Shown here in pieces: positions 1,443 through 18,770 of a DNA stretch of 18,770 nucleotides. The notes below the pieces were generated by a model. It saw only the letters and a list, made by a program, of their open reading frames with translations. It did not search any database and had not been told where the DNA came from. Source of the stretch: Bacillota bacterium (GTDB taxonomy: Bacteria; Bacillota_E; RBS10-35; JAJYVN01); the NCBI GenBank assembly GCA_021846605.1, contig JAJZWQ010000044.1, positions 1 through 18,770 of the forward strand, given 5' to 3'. A program made the translations under genes and the position numbers. Each line of letters opens with the position of its first letter. Position 1 is the stretch's first letter.

Positions 1443-1703
1443 ATGGACAAGGTGACAGGCGCGGCACTCCGCGTGACGGAGATCGAGCGCGGCGGGCTGC
1501 CGTCATCGGATGACGTGCTCTTGACGTTGCGGGAGTTGGCGACGTACCTGCGGCGGCATGAAATGGTCGTCTGGCGCGAAGCCAAGGCAGGCAGGCTGCC
1601 GGGCATCAAAATCGCCAACCGCTGGATGTTCCGAACCGGCGCTATCCGCGCGTGGTTGAGGGCCCAGGAGGAGGCTGCGGTGGCTCAGGCCGCCGCGCAA
1701 TAA
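1443..1703 (+). CDS. Excisionase-family HTH (MerR-like) DNA-binding protein
   Basis: This 86-residue protein carries a winged-helix domain of the excisionase/HTH_17 family at about residues 25-75. The core begins LLTLRELATYLRRHEMVVWR and ends in a predicted wing around IANRWMFRTGAIRAWL. Such proteins bind att or control regions and bend DNA, steering excision or transcription of integrated elements. The ATG at 1443 has GGCGAGGGGG upstream with about 7 bases of spacing. A TTG at 1440 is a less likely start. A near-consensus promoter lies 45 bases upstream. The usual partner integrase is not in the window, so it could be a true Xis or a small regulator. Confidence 0.8.
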   Translation: MDKVTGAALRVTEIERGGLPSSDDVLLTLRELATYLRRHEMVVWREAKAGRLPGIKIANRWMFRTGAIRAWLRAQEEAAVAQAAAQ

Positions 1704-1857: not shown

Positions 1858-3039
1858 GTGCCCAACCAGGTACTCCTGCACCCAGACATTCCCCGCGGAG
1901 AAAAGCTCCTTTATGCGGTCCTGCTTGCAGCCACTTGGCGCACGAACGGCATATGGGATCGGACACAAAAGGAACTGTCAGATCTCTTACCAGCGTCGGT
2001 GGACGAGGTGCAACGCGACCTTCGTGGATTGGCTCGGCGGGGGCTGGTCGCCAGTAAGCGGCGCGGGCTCGGCCTGCCGAACACGTACCGCGTGCTACGG
2101 GTCGGGGCGAATCAGCAGACCGAAATGCCTACAGCACCAACTGATACCGCAGGCTTGCGGCATCCAGAAACCGCAGCACTGCGGCAGGAGGTACCGCAAA
2201 ATGCGGTAGGGGATACCGCAGGACTGCGGCAACCATCGGCCGGAAATCCTTCTCCCGCAAGGCGTGGGCGGCCACTTAATACGGTTAAGACATTGAATAC
2301 CGGAGAAGAAACCCACGCGCCGCCGCCGAGCGGCGCGTGGGGTGTGGACAACGACAGGCCGCAGGGTGCGGAGTCCGCGCAACCGCAACACGATAGCCCG
2401 ATTCAAAGCGTCGTCGATGCAGCGACTATCTCTGAATCGGGCGCTGACGCGCCCAGGAGGGGCAAATCGGTCGGTGGTTCTGCTGCCGCTGCACATGCAG
2501 TGCCGCTCGTCGACGCGGGCGATAGTGCCGATCAGACGCCGGCACCCACGCCGACAACGCGGAAGCGGAACATCGCCATGGCCGATCCCGCCGCCAGGAC
2601 GTTGGTGCAATCGGTGTGCGACGCGCTCGCAGCGCACGACATGCAGACCGTTTACAAGAGCGATAGGACGTATTGGCCGCGAGCTTGTCGGGCGGCTTAT
2701 CAAATCCTTCGCGCAGGGGTCTCTGGTGATCAACTGACCGCAGCGGTCGCCTGGGCGCTCGCTCCGGAGCGTGCGCAGTACCAGACAGCGCGGGTCCTGC
2801 AGCCGGCCCGGTGGGCTGAGTTGATTGGTATTTGGCAGTCCCAGACAAGACATACAGGAGGCGGGGCAGATGCTGAGGCAGGCGGGCGTGGACTGGCTGG
2901 CAAGCCTTCCCGACAGGACAGCGGAAAACAGAGCAGCAGAGGAGACAGCGGAGCGACTGCGCAGCGAGACTGGGGCTATCGACTGGGCGCAGGCGCTGAG
3001 GAAGCGCTATCCACACCTTCTGGCGGCGGCGGCGCCTAA
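1858..3039 (+). CDS. Replication initiator with N-terminal HTH_36 domain (lambda O-like role)
   Basis: The N-terminal 80 residues match the HTH_36 replication-initiator pattern: VPNQVLLHPD, then a KLLYAVLLAATW helix, then a winged helix ending NTYRVLRV. A long low-complexity linker (about residues 85-240) follows; its DNA holds four interrupted palindromes that look like iterons. A second conserved-looking segment (about residues 245-325) has VQSVCDALAAHD, YWPRACRAAYQI and LQPARWAELIGIW. The likely role is binding the element's origin and recruiting the helicase loader encoded next. The GTG at 1858 is the only canonical start in frame, but open frame and family-like residues (GFTQ before VPN) continue upstream to about 1780, where AGAGGAG (1761-1767) precedes a CTG. 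The true start is therefore probably upstream and unusual. The last 170 bases overlap the next gene. Confidence 0.75.
   Translation: MPNQVLLHPDIPRGEKLLYAVLLAATWRTNGIWDRTQKELSDLLPASVDEVQRDLRGLARRGLVASKRRGLGLPNTYRVLRVGANQQTEMPTAPTDTAGLRHPETAALRQEVPQNAVGDTAGLRQPSAGNPSPARRGRPLNTVKTLNTGEETHAPPPSGAWGVDNDRPQGAESAQPQHDSPIQSVVDAATISESGADAPRRGKSVGGSAAAAHAVPLVDAGDSADQTPAPTPTTRKRNIAMADPAARTLVQSVCDALAAHDMQTVYKSDRTYWPRACRAAYQILRAGVSGDQLTAAVAWALAPERAQYQTARVLQPARWAELIGIWQSQTRHTGGGADAEAGGRGLAGKPSRQDSGKQSSRGDSGATAQRDWGYRLGAGAEEALSTPSGGGGA
2146..2231. repeat. Four iteron-like interrupted palindromes, candidate replication origin
   Basis: The motif ACCGCA-N3/4-TGCGGYA occurs at 2146-2162, 2170-2186, 2193-2208 and 2215-2231. 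Start-to-start spacing is 24, 23 and 22 bases. The third copy is a perfect palindrome with seven-base arms TACCGCA/TGCGGTA. A related CCGCA-GGG-TGCGG lies at 2359-2371. An AT-richer stretch containing CTTAA-TACGG-TTAAG follows at about 2273-2303. Four palindromic iterons inside the initiator gene, next to an AT-rich stretch, is the arrangement of the phage lambda origin inside gene O. Origin function is inferred. Confidence 0.7.
2312..2341 (+). other. Strong hairpin beside the candidate origin
   Basis: A perfect 12-bp GC-rich stem (2312-2323 with 2330-2341) encloses the loop CGCCGA. It lies within the initiator coding region, about 80 bases after the last iteron and just past the AT-rich segment. 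It could be a structural part of the origin, such as a priming or single-strand signal, or a coincidence of GC-rich coding sequence. Confidence 0.4.
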
Positions 3040-3892
3040 GATCATCGAACAGATCGGCCAGATGGACGCCGCGGGTGTTGGGTACTTGATCCAGGAGATC
3101 GACGCCGACGGCGCTGACGGCGCGCTGGAGCATTGGGATTGCAGCTCGTGCCCTGCCCGTCAGGCCGAAGGGGACACGCTCTCGCGGGAGGCGGGCGTAT
3201 GCCGCCACCCGTTCCTCACCCTCTATCGAGGCGTCATCGTCCGACTGGAACACGGACCATGCCACGAGACGGCGAAGCGGGTTCGCGAGATCGAGATCAT
3301 GCGGCACCTTCTGCGAGTGGGCGTCTCGCAACGGTTCCGGGCCGCCTGCCTGGAGGACTTCTCTACGGAAACGCCGCTGCGCCGAGCGGCGGCGGAGGCG
3401 TCCCGCGCGTGGGTCACCACGCTCACCGGGCGCCGCCGCGACGGTGCGGGCGGCATCCTGCTGGCGGGAGGCACGGGGCGCGGGAAGACCTACCTGGCCG
3501 CAGCCTCGGTGCGGGCGCTCCTCACAGCGGGGGTCACGCACGAGGACCTGGCCTGGGTCACGGTGTCTGAGGCGCTAGAGGCACGGCGGAGGGGCTTCTC
3601 CGCAGACAGTGAGCGTGGTAGGCAGGCGGAGGAACGTTGGGAGCGCGCCACACGAGCCAGGGTAGCGGTACTCGATGACCTCGGGGCCGAAAAACCCTCC
3701 GAGTGGACCGTGGAGCAGGTCTTCGTTTTGGTCAACGCTCGGTACGACGCCGAACGGCCAACGCTCATCACGACCAATTGCACGGCAGCCGAACTCGCTG
3801 AGCGGCTCGGGGAACGCACCGTGAGTCGCATCCAAGAAATGACCGCTTGCTATCCGCTTGACGGGCCGGACCGGCGGAGAGGAGTCGTGTAG
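2870..3892 (+). CDS. DnaC/DnaI-type helicase loader (AAA+ ATPase)
   Basis: This 340-residue protein has the layout of phage and element helicase loaders. A cysteine/histidine cluster (C91, C94, C111, H113) suggests a DnaI-like zinc site in the N-terminal half. An AAA+ core follows, with Walker A GGTGRGKT (about 200-207), Walker B AVLDDLG (Asp about 269-270), a sensor-1 TTN (about 301-303) and an arginine-rich segment ERTVSRIQEM near 316. Such proteins load the replicative DnaB helicase at an origin marked by an initiator. The ATG at 2870 has a perfect AGGAGG (2856-2861) with 8 bases of spacing. The gene overlaps the 3' end of the initiator gene by 170 bases in another frame, implying tight coupling, as in lambda O/P. 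Family assignment is secure; the partners are inferred. Confidence 0.88.
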   Translation: MLRQAGVDWLASLPDRTAENRAAEETAERLRSETGAIDWAQALRKRYPHLLAAAAPKIIEQIGQMDAAGVGYLIQEIDADGADGALEHWDCSSCPARQAEGDTLSREAGVCRHPFLTLYRGVIVRLEHGPCHETAKRVREIEIMRHLLRVGVSQRFRAACLEDFSTETPLRRAAAEASRAWVTTLTGRRRDGAGGILLAGGTGRGKTYLAAASVRALLTAGVTHEDLAWVTVSEALEARRRGFSADSERGRQAEERWERATRARVAVLDDLGAEKPSEWTVEQVFVLVNARYDAERPTLITTNCTAAELAERLGERTVSRIQEMTACYPLDGPDRRRGVV

Positions 3893-4074
3893 CGGTTGGT
3901 ACCACCCCGCCGCGCCGCGGCCCTCCCAGGCCCCCGCCCCCTCCCGTCCCGCGCCCCCGTCTCCCGGTGCACGTAAGGTCCGGGCGGACGCCCTCACAGC
4001 GCGGAGCACAATAATGATGTGACTGACGAGCCCGTCGGACGTACTGGCGGCAATCGTTCGTGCGATGCGAGCGA
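3893..4074. other. C-rich non-coding stretch at the element/transposon junction
   Basis: After the helicase-loader stop the plus strand is very pyrimidine-rich (about 3903-3965) and then short of any convincing frame. I see no gene. It separates the replication module from the truncated minus-strand transposase and may include the junction where one element was cut or inserted. Confidence 0.5.
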
Positions 4075-4274
4075 CCCTTTAGGGCCACAGGGCGGGCGAA
4101 GAGGTCACGGTAGCGCCGCTGCAGCGTCCGCACCGTCACGCCGTGCTCTGCCGCCAGCTCCCGCCACAGGGCCATCCGGGCCCCGGGGGGCACGTCCTCC
4201 TCCACCCGACGCGCGATCGTCACGTACCGCTTCAGCGCCACCCGCTGCCGCCCCGGGCCCCCGTCGTCCGTCAC
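4075..4274 (-). pseudogene. N-terminal fragment of a DDE-type transposase
   Basis: Read on the minus strand from 4274, about 67 residues look like the start of an integrase-core transposase. A short basic lead is followed by an HTH segment, MALWRELAAEHGVTVRTLQR, and then RYRDLFARPVALKG. This resembles the N-terminal HTH of IS481-like or Mu-like transposases. The open frame continues to 3768, but the sequence after about 4075 is low-complexity and not transposase-like, and no DDE catalytic domain is present. The gene is therefore truncated and almost surely inactive. It lies just downstream, on the same strand, of the broken DUF6431 gene; these families often sit next to each other in mobile elements. 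The exact IS family cannot be named from this fragment. Confidence 0.6.
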
Positions 4275-4329
4275 GGCCGGTCCCTCCCGGCGCCATTCTC
4301 GCCGGGGCGGGCCCTCCGTGCCGTTCCGT

Positions 4330-4970
4330 TGGTTGGGAAACCGTCAGAGGTGCCACGATATGGCGGCACAGGGACCAAAAGCTTCCCGGTAGCACCTCCA
4401 TCCGTAACCGCCACGCAGCGCGGAGCCGCTCCACCCACCCCGCGAGCGCCTCGCCCAGCAACAGCCCCTCCAGCATCCCCGCCGCCCGGATCCGCCGCCG
4501 CTGCCAAAGTGTCCGCCTGCTCTCCGGTAGGACCAGTGGACCAACCGCTTCACCGGCTGCCGCGACCTGCTCCCGGCACGTCTGCACCCAGGGTCCTGCC
4601 TCCCACGCCAGGGCCCGCACCCATCTCCAACTTGTGCTATGGCTGCAGGAGACGACCGCCGCGATCCCCCAGTGCGTGCACCGGCCCGCCCAGGTACTCC
4701 TGGATCGCAAGGTCACGGGAGGCCGATGGGTATCGGCCAAATGGTACCAGGCAGTCCGGCAGCACCGTGAGCCGGACGCCGCACTCCCGGCACGCGTAGC
4801 GCATCAACTGCATCGCCACGTCGGCTCCTGTGCCGTCCCCCAAGGGCACCGCCCGCACCCGCTGATCATGCAGCCGCAGCGATGTGGCCCCACACAACGG
4901 GCACGACTCAAAGCACCAGCCCCTTCAGGCCTTCCGCCGCCACCTTGACGTCGCTGCCTAACGGGACGAA
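4330..4970 (-). pseudogene. Broken DUF6431-type transposon-associated gene
   Basis: Minus-strand reading gives three pieces in different frames. The first piece (about 4970-4910) reads GSDVKVAAEGLKGLVL and ends at a TGA. The second carries zinc-finger-like CPLCG and CRECG pairs (about 4908-4780), then LTVLPDCLVPFGRY. The third (about 4680-4350) reads SWRWVRALAWEAGPWV and continues to LWQRRRIRAAGMLEGLLLGE and WSLCRHIVAP. Together they follow the DUF6431 pattern of an N-terminal zinc ribbon, a VLP..LVPF.RY motif and a Trp/Arg-rich C-terminus. At least two frameshifts are needed to join them, one near 4911 and one near 4670. DUF6431 genes typically neighbour transposases, as here. The product is unlikely to be functional. 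Confidence 0.6.
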
Positions 4971-5144
4971 GACCGGTCATACTCACCGACGCCGCTACCA
5001 CCGGCGCCTGGGGGGTCGGGATCGCCAGTCCTCATCGACTTGGCGGTCCCCTGGATTTTCCTTCAGTGAACCCCTTCCAACTGGCCTCTGCCAGGGAGGC
5101 GTCTCCCAGTCCGACCAAAACCCCCGGTTCCTACGTCACCGAGC

Positions 5145-5400
5145 GTGAGCCTCTACAACTGGCGACGGATCCCCGGGCACGCGGTAGTGTTGGCGGAAAC
5201 GTTTGTGGACGGGGGGCGGTTTCCGGGGACCTGTCATCGGGCGGCCGGCTGGACCGAGGTTGGGGAGACCGGGGGGTACGGCAAGCCGAACATGCGCTCC
5301 GTGGAGCACGGCGAGCGCAAGCAGATGCTGGTGCGGCCATTGTTTCGCGGAGCCGAGGGATGGCTGAAGGCGCCGTTTGACGCACCAGCGCTGGCGGAGC
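5145..5400 (+). pseudogene. Fragment of a DUF4338 (DruA-like, transposon-associated) gene
   Basis: The plus-strand frame from 5145 reads GHAVVLAETFVDGGRFPGTC followed by HRAAGWTEVGETGGYGK and later KQMLVRPLFRGAEGWL. This closely follows the DUF4338 core pattern (LETFVD..RF.GTCYRAANW...G.T.GRGK). Only this C-terminal core is present. The N-terminal part is missing or frame-shifted; a possible trace, QNPRFL, is at about 5118-5135 in another frame. The open frame continues in name to 6467, but it then runs antisense-like through the next gene and is not real. DUF4338 occurs in transposon-associated genes and in Druantia DruA; nothing here supports a working defence system. Confidence 0.65.
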
Positions 5401-5544
5401 AAAGCTGTTGTTTTCGACCCAGACGGGCCGGCACCGCCGGCCACTCCCGATCAGGCCTTCACGATCCGCCACATCGTCAACCGGAACCTCGACCGGCACC
5501 CGGGCGTCTGAGGTGTAGCGACCCTCGCAGGGAAGGACGGGTAT
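5401..5544. other. Gene-free spacer before the lipoprotein gene
   Basis: A short plus-strand reading frame ending at about 5511 (VVFDPDGPAPP, then AFTIRHIVNRNLDRHPGV) looks protein-like but is not recognised and has no start. It may be another gene remnant. GGAAGGACGG at 5531-5540 is the ribosome binding site for the gene at 5545. No clear promoter is seen. Confidence 0.35.
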
Positions 5545-16151: not shown

Positions 16152-18770
16152 GTGGCCACACGGGGGGCATGGGGATCCCTGGCGAGGCGGGCGGGGGCCA
16201 GGGGGGGATTAGGCGGACAGGTTGCGGGGCGGGGTCGGCAGTCGGCCCGTCCGTGGCGGGTGGCGTCCGTCCTGCCCCGTGTGGCCATAGTGGCAGCGCT
16301 GATGGCCGTCCTGGCGACGCCGGCGGCGGCGGCGAGCGCCATATTCACATGGGTCGCGCAGACGCCTGCCACGCATCCCTCGGCCCGCTTTCTTGCCGCG
16401 ATGGCCTACGACTCGGCGACCGGGGACATGGTCCTCTTCGGCGGACAGCGCTATGGCTTTCTGGGCGACACCTGGACGTACAATGGCACCACCTGGACCC
16501 AGCAGCACCCGGCCACGAGTCCCCCGGCCCGCGACTCGGCGTCGATGGCCTACGATGCGGCGACCGGGAACATCGTCCTGTTCGGCGGGGAAAACAGCAA
16601 CGACCTGGCCGACACCTGGACCTACAATGGCACCGCCTGGACCCAGCAGCACCCGGCCACGAGTCCCCCGGCCCGCATCAATGCCGCGATGGCCTACGAC
16701 CCGGCGACCGGGAACGTGGTGCTCTTCGGCGGGTTCGGCAGCAGCGGCGCCGCCCTGGGCGACACCTGGACCTACAATGGCACCACCTGGACCCAGCAGA
16801 CCCCTGCCACGAGTCCCCCGGCCCGCGGCTATGCCATGATGGCCTACGACCCGGCGACGGCCAGCATGGTCCTCTTCGGCGGGGGAACCAGCAGCAGCAC
16901 CCTGGGCGACACCTGGACGTACAATGGCACCACCTGGACCCAGCAGCACCCTGCCACGAGTCCATCGGCGCGCAGCGGTGCAGTAATGGCCTACGACCCG
17001 GCGACGGCCAGCATGGTCCTCTTCGGCGGGGCAACCAGCAGCAGCGCTGCCCTCGGCGACACCTGGACGTACGACGGCACCACCTGGACCCAGCAGCACC
17101 CTGCCACGAGTCCCTCAGCCCGTTTCTATGCGTCGATGGCCTATGACTCGACGACGGCTAGCATGGTCCTGTTCGGTGGGGCAAATAGCTCCGACTTCTT
17201 CAGCGACACCTGGACCTACCAACCGGCCACCGCCCCGAGTGCGCCTACCGGCCTCACCGCCAGCGGCGGCAACGGCCGGGTGGCGTTGTCGTGGACCGCG
17301 CCCTCCTCCGACGGCGGCAGCCCGGTCACCGGCTACAACGTGTATGAGGGGACGAGCACCGGAGGGGAGTCTGCCACCCCGGTGAACGCGTCGCCGCTGT
17401 CGGGCATCGCCACCGCGTACACGGTGAGCGGGCTGACGAACGGCACGAAGTACTACTTCACCGTCAAGGCGATCAACGCAGTCGGCACGTCGTCGGCGTC
17501 GAACGAGGCGTCTGCCATCCCGGCGGCCACTATCCCCGGCGCACCGACGGGGCTGACCGCCACTCCGGGAAACGCCCAGGTGGCGTTGACATGGACCGCG
17601 CCCACCTCTGACGGCGGCAGCACGATCACCGGCTACAACGTGTACGAGGGGACGAGCACCGGAGGGGAGTCTGCCACCCCGGTGAACGCGTCGCCGCTGT
17701 CGGGCACCGCCACCTCGTACACCGTGAGCGGGCTGACGAACGGCACAAAGTACTACTTCACCGTCAAGGCGATCAACGCCGTCGGCACGTCGTCGGCATC
17801 CAACGAGGCGTCCGGCACACCGAAGACCACGCCTGCTGCTCCGACGGGGCTGACCGCCACTCCTGGTAACGCCCAGGTGGTGTTGACGTGGACCGGGCCG
17901 TCCTCTGACGGCGGCAGCACGATCACCGGCTACAACGTCTATGAAGGCACGAGCACGGGCGGGGAGTCTGCCACCCCGGTGAACACGTCGCCACTGTCGG
18001 GCACCGCCACTTCGTACACCGTGAGCGGGCTGACCAACGGCACGAAGTACTACTTCACCGTCAAGGCGATCAACGCCGTCGGCACGTCGGCGGCGTCGAA
18101 CGAGGCCTCTGCGACCCCGGCCACTACGCCTGGCGCCCCGACGGGGCTGAGCGCCACTCCTGGCAACGCCCAGGTGGCGTTGACATGGACCGCGCCCACC
18201 TCTGACGGCGGCAGCACGATCACCGGCTACAACGTGTACGAGGGGACGAGCACCGGAGGGGAGTCCGCGACCCCGGTGAACGCGTCGCCGCTGTCGGGCA
18301 CCGCCACCTCGTACACCGTGAGCGGGCTGACCAACGGCACGAAGTACTACTTCACCGTCAAGGCGATCAACAGCGTCGGGAGCTCGTCGGCGTCGAACGA
18401 GGCCTCTGCGACCCCGAAGACCACTCCTGGGGCTCCGACGGGGCTGACCGCCACTCCTGGCAACGCCCAGGTGGCGTTGACGTGGACCGGACCGTCCACT
18501 GACGGCGGCAGCACGATCACCGGCTACAACGTCTACGAGGGGACGAGTGCTGGCGGGGAGTCCGCGACCCCGGTGAACGCGTCGCCGCTGTCGGGCACCG
18601 CCACTTCGTACACCGTGAGCGGGCTGACCAACGGCACGAAGTACTACTTCACCGTCAAGGCGGTCAACGCCGTCGGGAGCTCGTCGGCGTCTAATGAGGC
18701 GTCTGCTACCCCGGCCGCACCCGCGACTGCCCCCGCTGCCCCGACCGTTCTCACTACCACAGCGTGCTAC
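16152..18770 (+). CDS. Secreted Kelch-FN3 repeat protein (3' end outside window)
   Basis: The frame is open from 16146 to the window end (873 codons from GTG 16152). GGAGGG (16136-16141) lies 10 bases upstream and GGAG directly before the start. The first 63 residues are an Arg-rich lead, the hydrophobic run VAIVAALMAVLA and a cleavage-like TPAAAASA, so export is likely. Six Kelch repeats of 48-50 residues follow, each with MAYD.ATG..VLFGG and DTWTYNGTTWTQQ, starting at 16401, 16545, 16689, 16839, 16986 and 17136. They should form one six-bladed propeller. Five FN3 domains (about 17232-18714) follow, joined by PATTP/PKTTP linkers. It is probably a surface or extracellular binding protein; no catalytic domain is seen. 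The start could also be a later GTG. Confidence 0.85.
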   Translation, partial: MATRGAWGSLARRAGARGGLGGQVAGRGRQSARPWRVASVLPRVAIVAALMAVLATPAAAASAIFTWVAQTPATHPSARFLAAMAYDSATGDMVLFGGQRYGFLGDTWTYNGTTWTQQHPATSPPARDSASMAYDAATGNIVLFGGENSNDLADTWTYNGTAWTQQHPATSPPARINAAMAYDPATGNVVLFGGFGSSGAALGDTWTYNGTTWTQQTPATSPPARGYAMMAYDPATASMVLFGGGTSSSTLGDTWTYNGTTWTQQHPATSPSARSGAVMAYDPATASMVLFGGATSSSAALGDTWTYDGTTWTQQHPATSPSARFYASMAYDSTTASMVLFGGANSSDFFSDTWTYQPATAPSAPTGLTASGGNGRVALSWTAPSSDGGSPVTGYNVYEGTSTGGESATPVNASPLSGIATAYTVSGLTNGTKYYFTVKAINAVGTSSASNEASAIPAATIPGAPTGLTATPGNAQVALTWTAPTSDGGSTITGYNVYEGTSTGGESATPVNASPLSGTATSYTVSGLTNGTKYYFTVKAINAVGTSSASNEASGTPKTTPAAPTGLTATPGNAQVVLTWTGPSSDGGSTITGYNVYEGTSTGGESATPVNTSPLSGTATSYTVSGLTNGTKYYFTVKAINAVGTSAASNEASATPATTPGAPTGLSATPGNAQVALTWTAPTSDGGSTITGYNVYEGTSTGGESATPVNASPLSGTATSYTVSGLTNGTKYYFTVKAINSVGSSSASNEASATPKTTPGAPTGLTATPGNAQVALTWTGPSTDGGSTITGYNVYEGTSAGGESATPVNASPLSGTATSYTVSGLTNGTKYYFTVKAVNAVGSSSASNEASATPAAPATAPAAPTVLTTTACY
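16401..17220 (+). repeat. Six Kelch-encoding DNA repeats (144-150 bases)
   Basis: Repeat starts at the ATGGCCTA anchor lie at 16401, 16545, 16689, 16839, 16986 and 17136, so unit lengths are 144, 144, 150, 147 and 150 bases. Long blocks such as GACACCTGGACSTACAATGG and ACCCAGCAGCACCC recur almost unchanged. Length differences fall in the loop after VLFGG and keep the frame. Confidence 0.9.
17241..18714 (+). repeat. Five near-identical FN3-encoding tandem repeats (about 297 bases)
   Basis: The conserved codon pair at the start of each FN3 domain lies at 17244, 17544, 17841, 18138 and 18435, giving periods of 300, 297, 297 and 297 bases. Blocks such as ATCACCGGCTACAACGT and GTGAGCGGGCTGAC are almost identical between copies at the DNA level, including silent positions. 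This indicates recent duplication or gene conversion. Confidence 0.92.

Follow-up and report, generated by a model that had tools for sequence, protein, structure and literature searches.

The 18,770-nucleotide stretch of DNA analysed here (contig JAJZWQ010000044.1 of a Bacillota bacterium, assembly GCA_021846605.1; below, the window) carries a gene for an initiator-like protein, and inside this gene lies an array of palindromic iterons. The gene occupies 1858..3039 of the plus strand, has a GTG start as listed and encodes 393 amino acids; it was delimited from the list of open reading frames (ORFs) and from profile matches. The next gene on the same strand, at 2870..3892 with an uncertain start codon, encodes a DnaC-like helicase loader (phrog_50, E-value 1.6e-41).

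Palindromic array in the linker of an initiator-like protein

Pattern matching located four copies of ACCGCA-N3/4-TGCGGYA on the plus strand between 2146 and 2231 and none elsewhere in the 18,770 bases, while 200 dinucleotide shuffles contained 0.01 copies on average and 1 at most. These iterons, ACCGCAGGCTTGCGGCA (2146..2162), ACCGCAGCACTGCGGCA (2170..2186), ACCGCAAAATGCGGTA (2193..2208) and ACCGCAGGACTGCGGCA (2215..2231), start 24, 23 and 22 bp apart. The third also matches on the minus strand (2192-2207), forming a perfect TACCGCA/TGCGGTA dyad from 2192. The looser pattern CCGCA-N2-6-TGCGG has five sites in the window (shuffle mean 0.67, largest 4), namely the four iterons and an outlying plus-strand core, CCGCA-GGG-TGCGG, at 2359..2371. 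All five cores lie within the initiator ORF. A first-pass annotation, made by a model from the letters alone, had pointed to four such palindromes with 22-24 base spacing and to a related fifth core; all five lie where it placed them and exceed shuffle expectation.

The array encodes residues 97-125 and stands 290-370 bp into the gene, away from the gene's promoter. Copies 1, 2 and 4 are in codon phase 0 and encode TAGLR, TAALR and TAGLR; copies 3 and 5 are in phase 2 and encode PQNAV and PQGA. Synonymous recoding, repeated 2000 times, gave three copies of the best dyad family once and never four or five, against the five observed. Because recoding yields at most three dyads and the copies use two codon phases, selection or recent duplication acted at the DNA level, and duplication alone would not preserve dyads through a change of frame. 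The array is explained neither by chance nor by the protein sequence. The first-pass annotation had staked its reading on palindromes conserved beyond the needs of the protein, and at the level of sequence they are: recodings fail to reproduce them, and the dyads recur in other initiator genes.

Two further features, an AT-richer stretch between array and fifth core and a 12-bp hairpin, had likewise been claimed and are borne out. The lowest-GC 40-bp segment of the initiator gene, a candidate unwinding region, lies at 2272..2311 (37.5% GC; 42.5% at 2278-2317, 64.1% in the whole gene) and begins 41 bp past iteron 4. Its end is adjoined by a perfect 12-bp inverted repeat with a 6-nt loop (2312..2341, where 2312-2323 pairs with 2330-2341), which has a z-score of -5.27 and is equalled in none of 200 shuffles.

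The AlphaFold2 model of the protein predicts a winged helix at about residues 1-80 (predicted local distance difference test about 90 for residues 11-80), a disordered linker at about 85-243 and a low-confidence helical C-terminal domain at 244-333. The recognition helix, residues 48-60 (1999..2037, plus strand), was placed from DSSP of this model and the domain alignment. It starts with S47-V48-D49-E50-V51-Q52-R53, and D49, Q52 and L55 stand at positions S+2, S+5 and S+8. The best profile match is to phrog_270, a replication initiation protein family (E 1.2e-4); O-like phrogs match weakly (E 0.022 and 0.042). The protein had been claimed as an HTH_36 initiator. The winged helix of the N-terminal domain stands as a prediction; the match of residues 1-91 to HTH_36 (PF13730) scores 14.9 bits (E 0.024), below the Pfam gathering cut-off of 25, and in a Pfam scan of the whole protein at E 0.1 HTH_36 was not listed. 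RepA_N gave no Pfam match at E 0.1 either. The best Foldseek rows in the PDB for the N-terminal model are 5kbj, 4pql and 4pt7 (E 1e-3), which we take to be N-domains of RepA-type plasmid Rep initiators. By VIA-align Z-score, 4pql and 4pt7 are tied with other winged helices, including regulators such as CRP and LexA. A search for relatives found no protein at E 0.001 among 7996 scored and none by tblastn in phages and plasmids; ten pattern stretches came from viral contigs, none of them confirmed.

Linker arrays and the CCGC iteron class in other genes

A minority of winged-helix genes also carry linker palindrome arrays with a spacing of about 22 bp. Among the 8184 ORFs of at least 100 amino acids in the loci that we collected (L numbers below), strict arrays occur in 23 of 182 winged helix-turn-helix (wHTH) ORFs (159 kb in total), compared with 25 of the 8002 remaining ORFs (5.05 Mb), the latter set including overlapping frames, unsubtracted. 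A relaxed detector found arrays with scores of at least 9 in 38 of 168 genes sharing less than 85% domain identity, where shuffles predict 1.6. Successive iterons are 21-24 bp apart in 79 of 153 pairs. The dyads themselves are diverse: GGTGAC in Bifidobacterium phage PMBT6 (L238), GTGACA in L433, CGACA in L213, GTGAAC in L427 and, by eye, GTGACAAAATGTCAC in Vibrio phage D67 and a GGTGCA type in Pseudomonas phage PseuP_222, whose genes run CI, Cro, CII, regulatory protein, O, replisome organizer, NinB.

Some of these arrays are very regular, and a near-constant period of 22-23 bp marks the wHTH genes of L286 (five intervals of 22), L208, L121, L234 and L273, one of which is a viral contig. Another arrangement is seen in Veillonella and in a viral contig (L017:3849-3950 and L101:1849-1950), where four dyads of TAACAATTTGTTA type, spaced by 26-32 bp, lie in no ORF of at least 100 amino acids and several kilobases from the loader. 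Further, a tandem GAACC repeat with a period of about 12 bp is present in 23 of the 153 initiator linkers (1.25 expected), often right after the iterons, for example in L391, L392, L437, L421 and L239. We dropped it as a DNA unwinding element: 23 of 24 genes keep one codon phase (Glu-Pro), and the repeat may be a peptide feature.

The first-pass annotation did not recognise the iteron family of the window; it is present in other phage and plasmid initiators. When viral contigs were scanned for two neighbouring CCGC-class dyads, 41 loci were returned. Five of them have at least three cores near the match, all in wHTH ORFs: six cores in L201, four in L172, and three each in L178 and in the close relatives L171 and L185. 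Three more loci, with two cores each, lie in wHTH-like ORFs, namely L165 and L198 (the same gene) and L199 (recognised by eye), and the other 33 were judged to lie outside such ORFs. Members of the class share the site of the array, just past the winged helix, and a recognition helix of the form S-x-D-[TSE]-V-x-R. The N-terminal domain of the window protein is 16-31% identical to those of the members compared and 37% identical to that of the non-member L234. Other routes led to the same combination. In the Tardiphaga plasmid L239, reached by protein similarity, the helix is SVDTVQR and the linker contains GCCGCA half-sites; L391 and L392, relatives of query protein P0018, came from a scan with peptide patterns that do not include the helix, and these two of its new genes, which have an S-x-D-S-V-x-R helix, both have CCGC dyads. 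The dyad of this class recurs in unrelated linkers that encode other peptides.

The six-iteron initiator L201 (L201:2205-3326) matches the DnaA N-terminal domain PF11638 at its C-terminus (E 7e-4, below cut-off), and the ORFs that follow contain no loader. Its C-terminal domain perhaps makes the helicase contact in place of a separate loader.

Recognition helix and iteron half-site

After removal of domains 80% alike, an Asp two residues past the helix-capping Ser is found in 6 of 6 array genes of the CCGC class and in 0 of 14 other array genes (Fisher p = 2.6e-5); of the 129 genes that lack a strict array, 14 have it. Among the 38 array genes of the relaxed set, similarity of the helix correlates with similarity of the half-site (r = 0.19, p = 0.0004), and controlling for the rest of the domain leaves this result as it is; the rest of the domain shows no such correlation (r = -0.003, p = 0.52). 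The signal persists when the CCGC class is left out (N = 29, p = 0.009), and in Mantel variants restricted to genes under 45% identity (N = 32, p = 0.002) or lacking the window and the genes found by pattern (N = 33, p = 0.005). By single position it is carried by S+2 (p 0.001), S+5 (p 0.002) and S+8 (p 0.007), values uncorrected for 18 positions; these three fall on one face of the helix.

Individual genes illustrate the same relation. L275 and L283 have domains 56% identical, with helices SKDSVDR and SRATVKR; the dyad is TAGCCGC...GCGGC in the former (the automatic half-site call took a neighbouring dyad, GCGGCT) and TAGGTTC...GAACC in the latter. L386, 46% identical to the class member L172 over the first 67 residues, has the helix SRATVIR and the dyad GATAC...GTATC. 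As for the window, the helix would have allowed a prediction of the iteron: its five nearest helices among the 37 other array genes all belong to genes with CCGC half-sites, which does not hold for the five genes closest to it in the remainder of the domain. This comparison suggests that reading helix and sites change together across related genes.

We hypothesize that linker-borne sites form a self-contained, swappable specificity module of winged-helix phage and plasmid initiators, in which residues S+2, S+5 and S+8 would set the half-site and S-x-D-[TSE]-[VI]-x-R would read CCGC(A); the window would be one member. We hold this hypothesis to be about as likely as not. The literature excerpts consulted, from a library lacking most subscription papers, contain no description of a helix-iteron rule for HTH_36-type initiators.

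Several points weigh against the rule and against the generality of linker arrays. Asp at S+2 is insufficient alone: of 149 domains, 20 carry it but 14 of these lack a strict array, and L273 (SRDTAMR) has Asp at S+2 with iterons of GTTGC type. The Mantel test loses significance in the strictest set (N = 23 with scores of at least 10, p = 0.16). Nearest-neighbour tests are weak in three of four sets (p = 0.002 for all 38, 0.09 for N = 32, 0.14 for N = 33 and 0.75 for N = 23). Exact-arm arrays lie upstream of loaders in only 4 of 150 regions (L032, L086, L104, L136; shuffles 0.0, controls 0 of 154 downstream of loaders and 0 of 121 far upstream), by a rule that missed the palindrome array of L147. 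Arrays are also found outside initiators, in L017/L101, L032, L067, L155 and the 25 other ORFs counted above. Further points concern sampling: 6 of the 23 strict-array genes (the window, L171, L172, L178, L185, L201) were found via the array itself, L213-L215 among them are close relatives, and the wHTH hidden Markov model (HMM) had seven seeds, including the window and three class members. An HMM of this domain built without the window matches residues 1-90 of the window protein at E 0.0083 and the whole protein at E 0.064, and did not recover it in the run over all ORFs.

Proposed origin, its rivals and the surrounding genes

We consider it highly probable, from sequence comparison and by analogy with known replicons, that the initiator gene contains an origin of replication whose linker iterons are bound by the protein's own winged helix. 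The N-terminal winged helix would bind the palindromic iterons that encode the linker of the same protein, as comparison with other initiators indicates. By the example of lambda and the RepA_N replicons, several dimers, bound at intervals of about two helical turns, would wrap the DNA and the adjacent AT-rich stretch would be opened, with the hairpin possibly limiting or orienting the opening. The C-terminal domain and the neighbouring DnaC-like protein would then load the host replicative helicase. Because the sites are kept in the linker, protein and sites would travel as one module.

The layout resembles that of lambda O-ori-P, where O binds iterons that form imperfect inverted repeats and the origin is placed centrally in the O gene (PMC7466680; this and the following papers are cited from excerpts). 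Both have four palindromic iterons within the initiator gene, an AT-rich stretch after them and a loader gene next, and their iteron starts are similarly spaced (20, 24 and 23 bp in lambda). The first-pass annotation had proposed exactly this layout with unrelated sequence, and the order of initiator, origin and loader, with iterons, AT-rich segment and hairpin, stands. Differences from lambda are the iteron sequence (ATCCCTCAAAACGAGGGA type in lambda), the lack of significant similarity to O-like families, a loader that is a DnaC-like AAA+ protein and by annotation no P homologue, and the fact that no integrase or phage structural gene was seen.

RepA_N plasmids offer the second parallel. Rep of pSK41 consists of an N-terminal winged helix, a linker encoded by the origin and a C-terminal domain; the central part of rep carries four Rep boxes, and the linker is dispensable for protein function (PMC5703833). 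In the window, too, the repeats lie mid-gene and encode linker. The window protein differs in having no RepA_N Pfam match, and where pSK41 Rep contacts primase (PMC5703833), the window has a helicase-loader gene downstream. In the hybrid Rep of pPR9, the N-domain belongs to pfam13730 and is related to a phage protein; the rep region of this plasmid replicates (PMC5703833). In the RepA of Vibrio cholerae PLE, the DNA-binding RepA_N domain covaries with semi-palindromic iterons and modules are swapped; the PLE iterons are intergenic, unlike those of the window (PMC8263062). Further plasmids with an origin inside the initiator gene are listed in PMC3155836. The HTH_36-type initiators L201, L172, L171/L185, L178, L239, L391 and L392 share iteron class, site and helix motif with the window. 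Our best reading is that the system of the window would work like lambda O-ori-P and the RepA_N replicons, its membership in either being unproven by sequence.

Among the alternatives, the palindromes might be operators through which a regulator represses or times transcription of its own and the loader gene, with replication starting elsewhere or never. Repressors typically combine a wHTH domain with tandem dyads, CRP, LexA and similar regulators tie in the fold comparison, and iterons often double as autoregulatory sites. We regard this as improbable, given an array far inside the gene and not at a promoter, a neighbour that is a DnaC-like loader, and linker arrays (seen by eye) in genes annotated for replication; deposited annotations read 'DNA replication protein O' in PseuP_222, 'replication initiation O-like' in Vibrio phage D67 and 'primosomal protein' in Bcep176. 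Slightly less probable still is a degenerate former origin, which has lost integrase and other genes and whose array is a decaying relic. The frames scanned contain no integrase, and about 3900-5500, after the loader, holds no intact matched gene, only a DUF6431 piece; against decay, neither the array nor the hairpin is damaged, both reading frames are unbroken and the dyads persist in two codon phases.

A TA-x-LR linker whose codons happen to form dyads, by chance or as a repeat at the protein level, is the least credible of the alternatives. Three of the five copies do encode TA-x-LR in one frame, but 0 of 2000 recodings reach four copies, which comes near to refutation; copies 3 and 5 are in the other phase, and the dyad recurs in linkers with other peptides.

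The general plan of an origin within its initiator gene is already known from lambda O and, in the excerpts cited, from pSK41 Rep, and the bolder point would be the helix-iteron rule across initiators. If it is true, the origin could be read from any such initiator gene, and the cognate initiator of an orphan origin guessed from one helix. The family would present a natural series of changes in protein-DNA specificity, with protein and site in one gene. The repetitive and variable linkers of phage initiators would be explained, and testable incompatibility groups could be defined for uncultured phages and plasmids.

The loader also matches the PRK08116 subfamily (3.9e-32, below cut-off) and IstB_IS21 (6.4e-9, above cut-off). 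Its frame overlaps that of the initiator by about 170 bases (2870-3039), and alternative starts exist. The best relative, P0002, is 42% identical over 84% and aligns only from about residue 50; the best 80 of 315 matches in genome contigs and the best 80 of 208 in viral contigs are distant. A search of 110 genomes from the class of G245, run without positive control, did not find the loader.

Upstream of the initiator lie a small HTH_17 protein, excisionase-like, at 1443..1703 on the plus strand (HTH_17 1.9e-9; phrog_66, excisionase and transcriptional regulator, 4.1e-8; TIGR01764 below cut-off), an XRE-like regulator at 274-1293 (HTH_3 just under cut-off) and a tRNA-Arg gene at 35-112, with the contig beginning 34 bases before it. 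The suggestion of the first-pass annotation that the element may replicate after excision is unsupported: Pfam found no integrase among the 12 reading frames scanned (other frames were not scanned), and no repeat of at least 18 nt gives a second copy of the tRNA end. The region after the tRNA gene (113-201) has a terminator-like inverted repeat at about 143-171, then two TGGTCCCC copies at about 181-199, and resembles the border of an integrated element, but neither an integrase nor a second copy of an att site was detected. No intact gene was matched at 3893-5500; the DUF6431 piece there (minus strand, 4637-4897, E 3.2e-8) suggests a decayed insertion. In 301 genomes from a single phylum, the closest relative of the RNase H/helicase protein of the window is 49% identical. 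Finally, 16152-18770 encodes a Kelch and fibronectin-III protein with five repeat units of 297-300 bp that are 87-92% identical to the reference unit.
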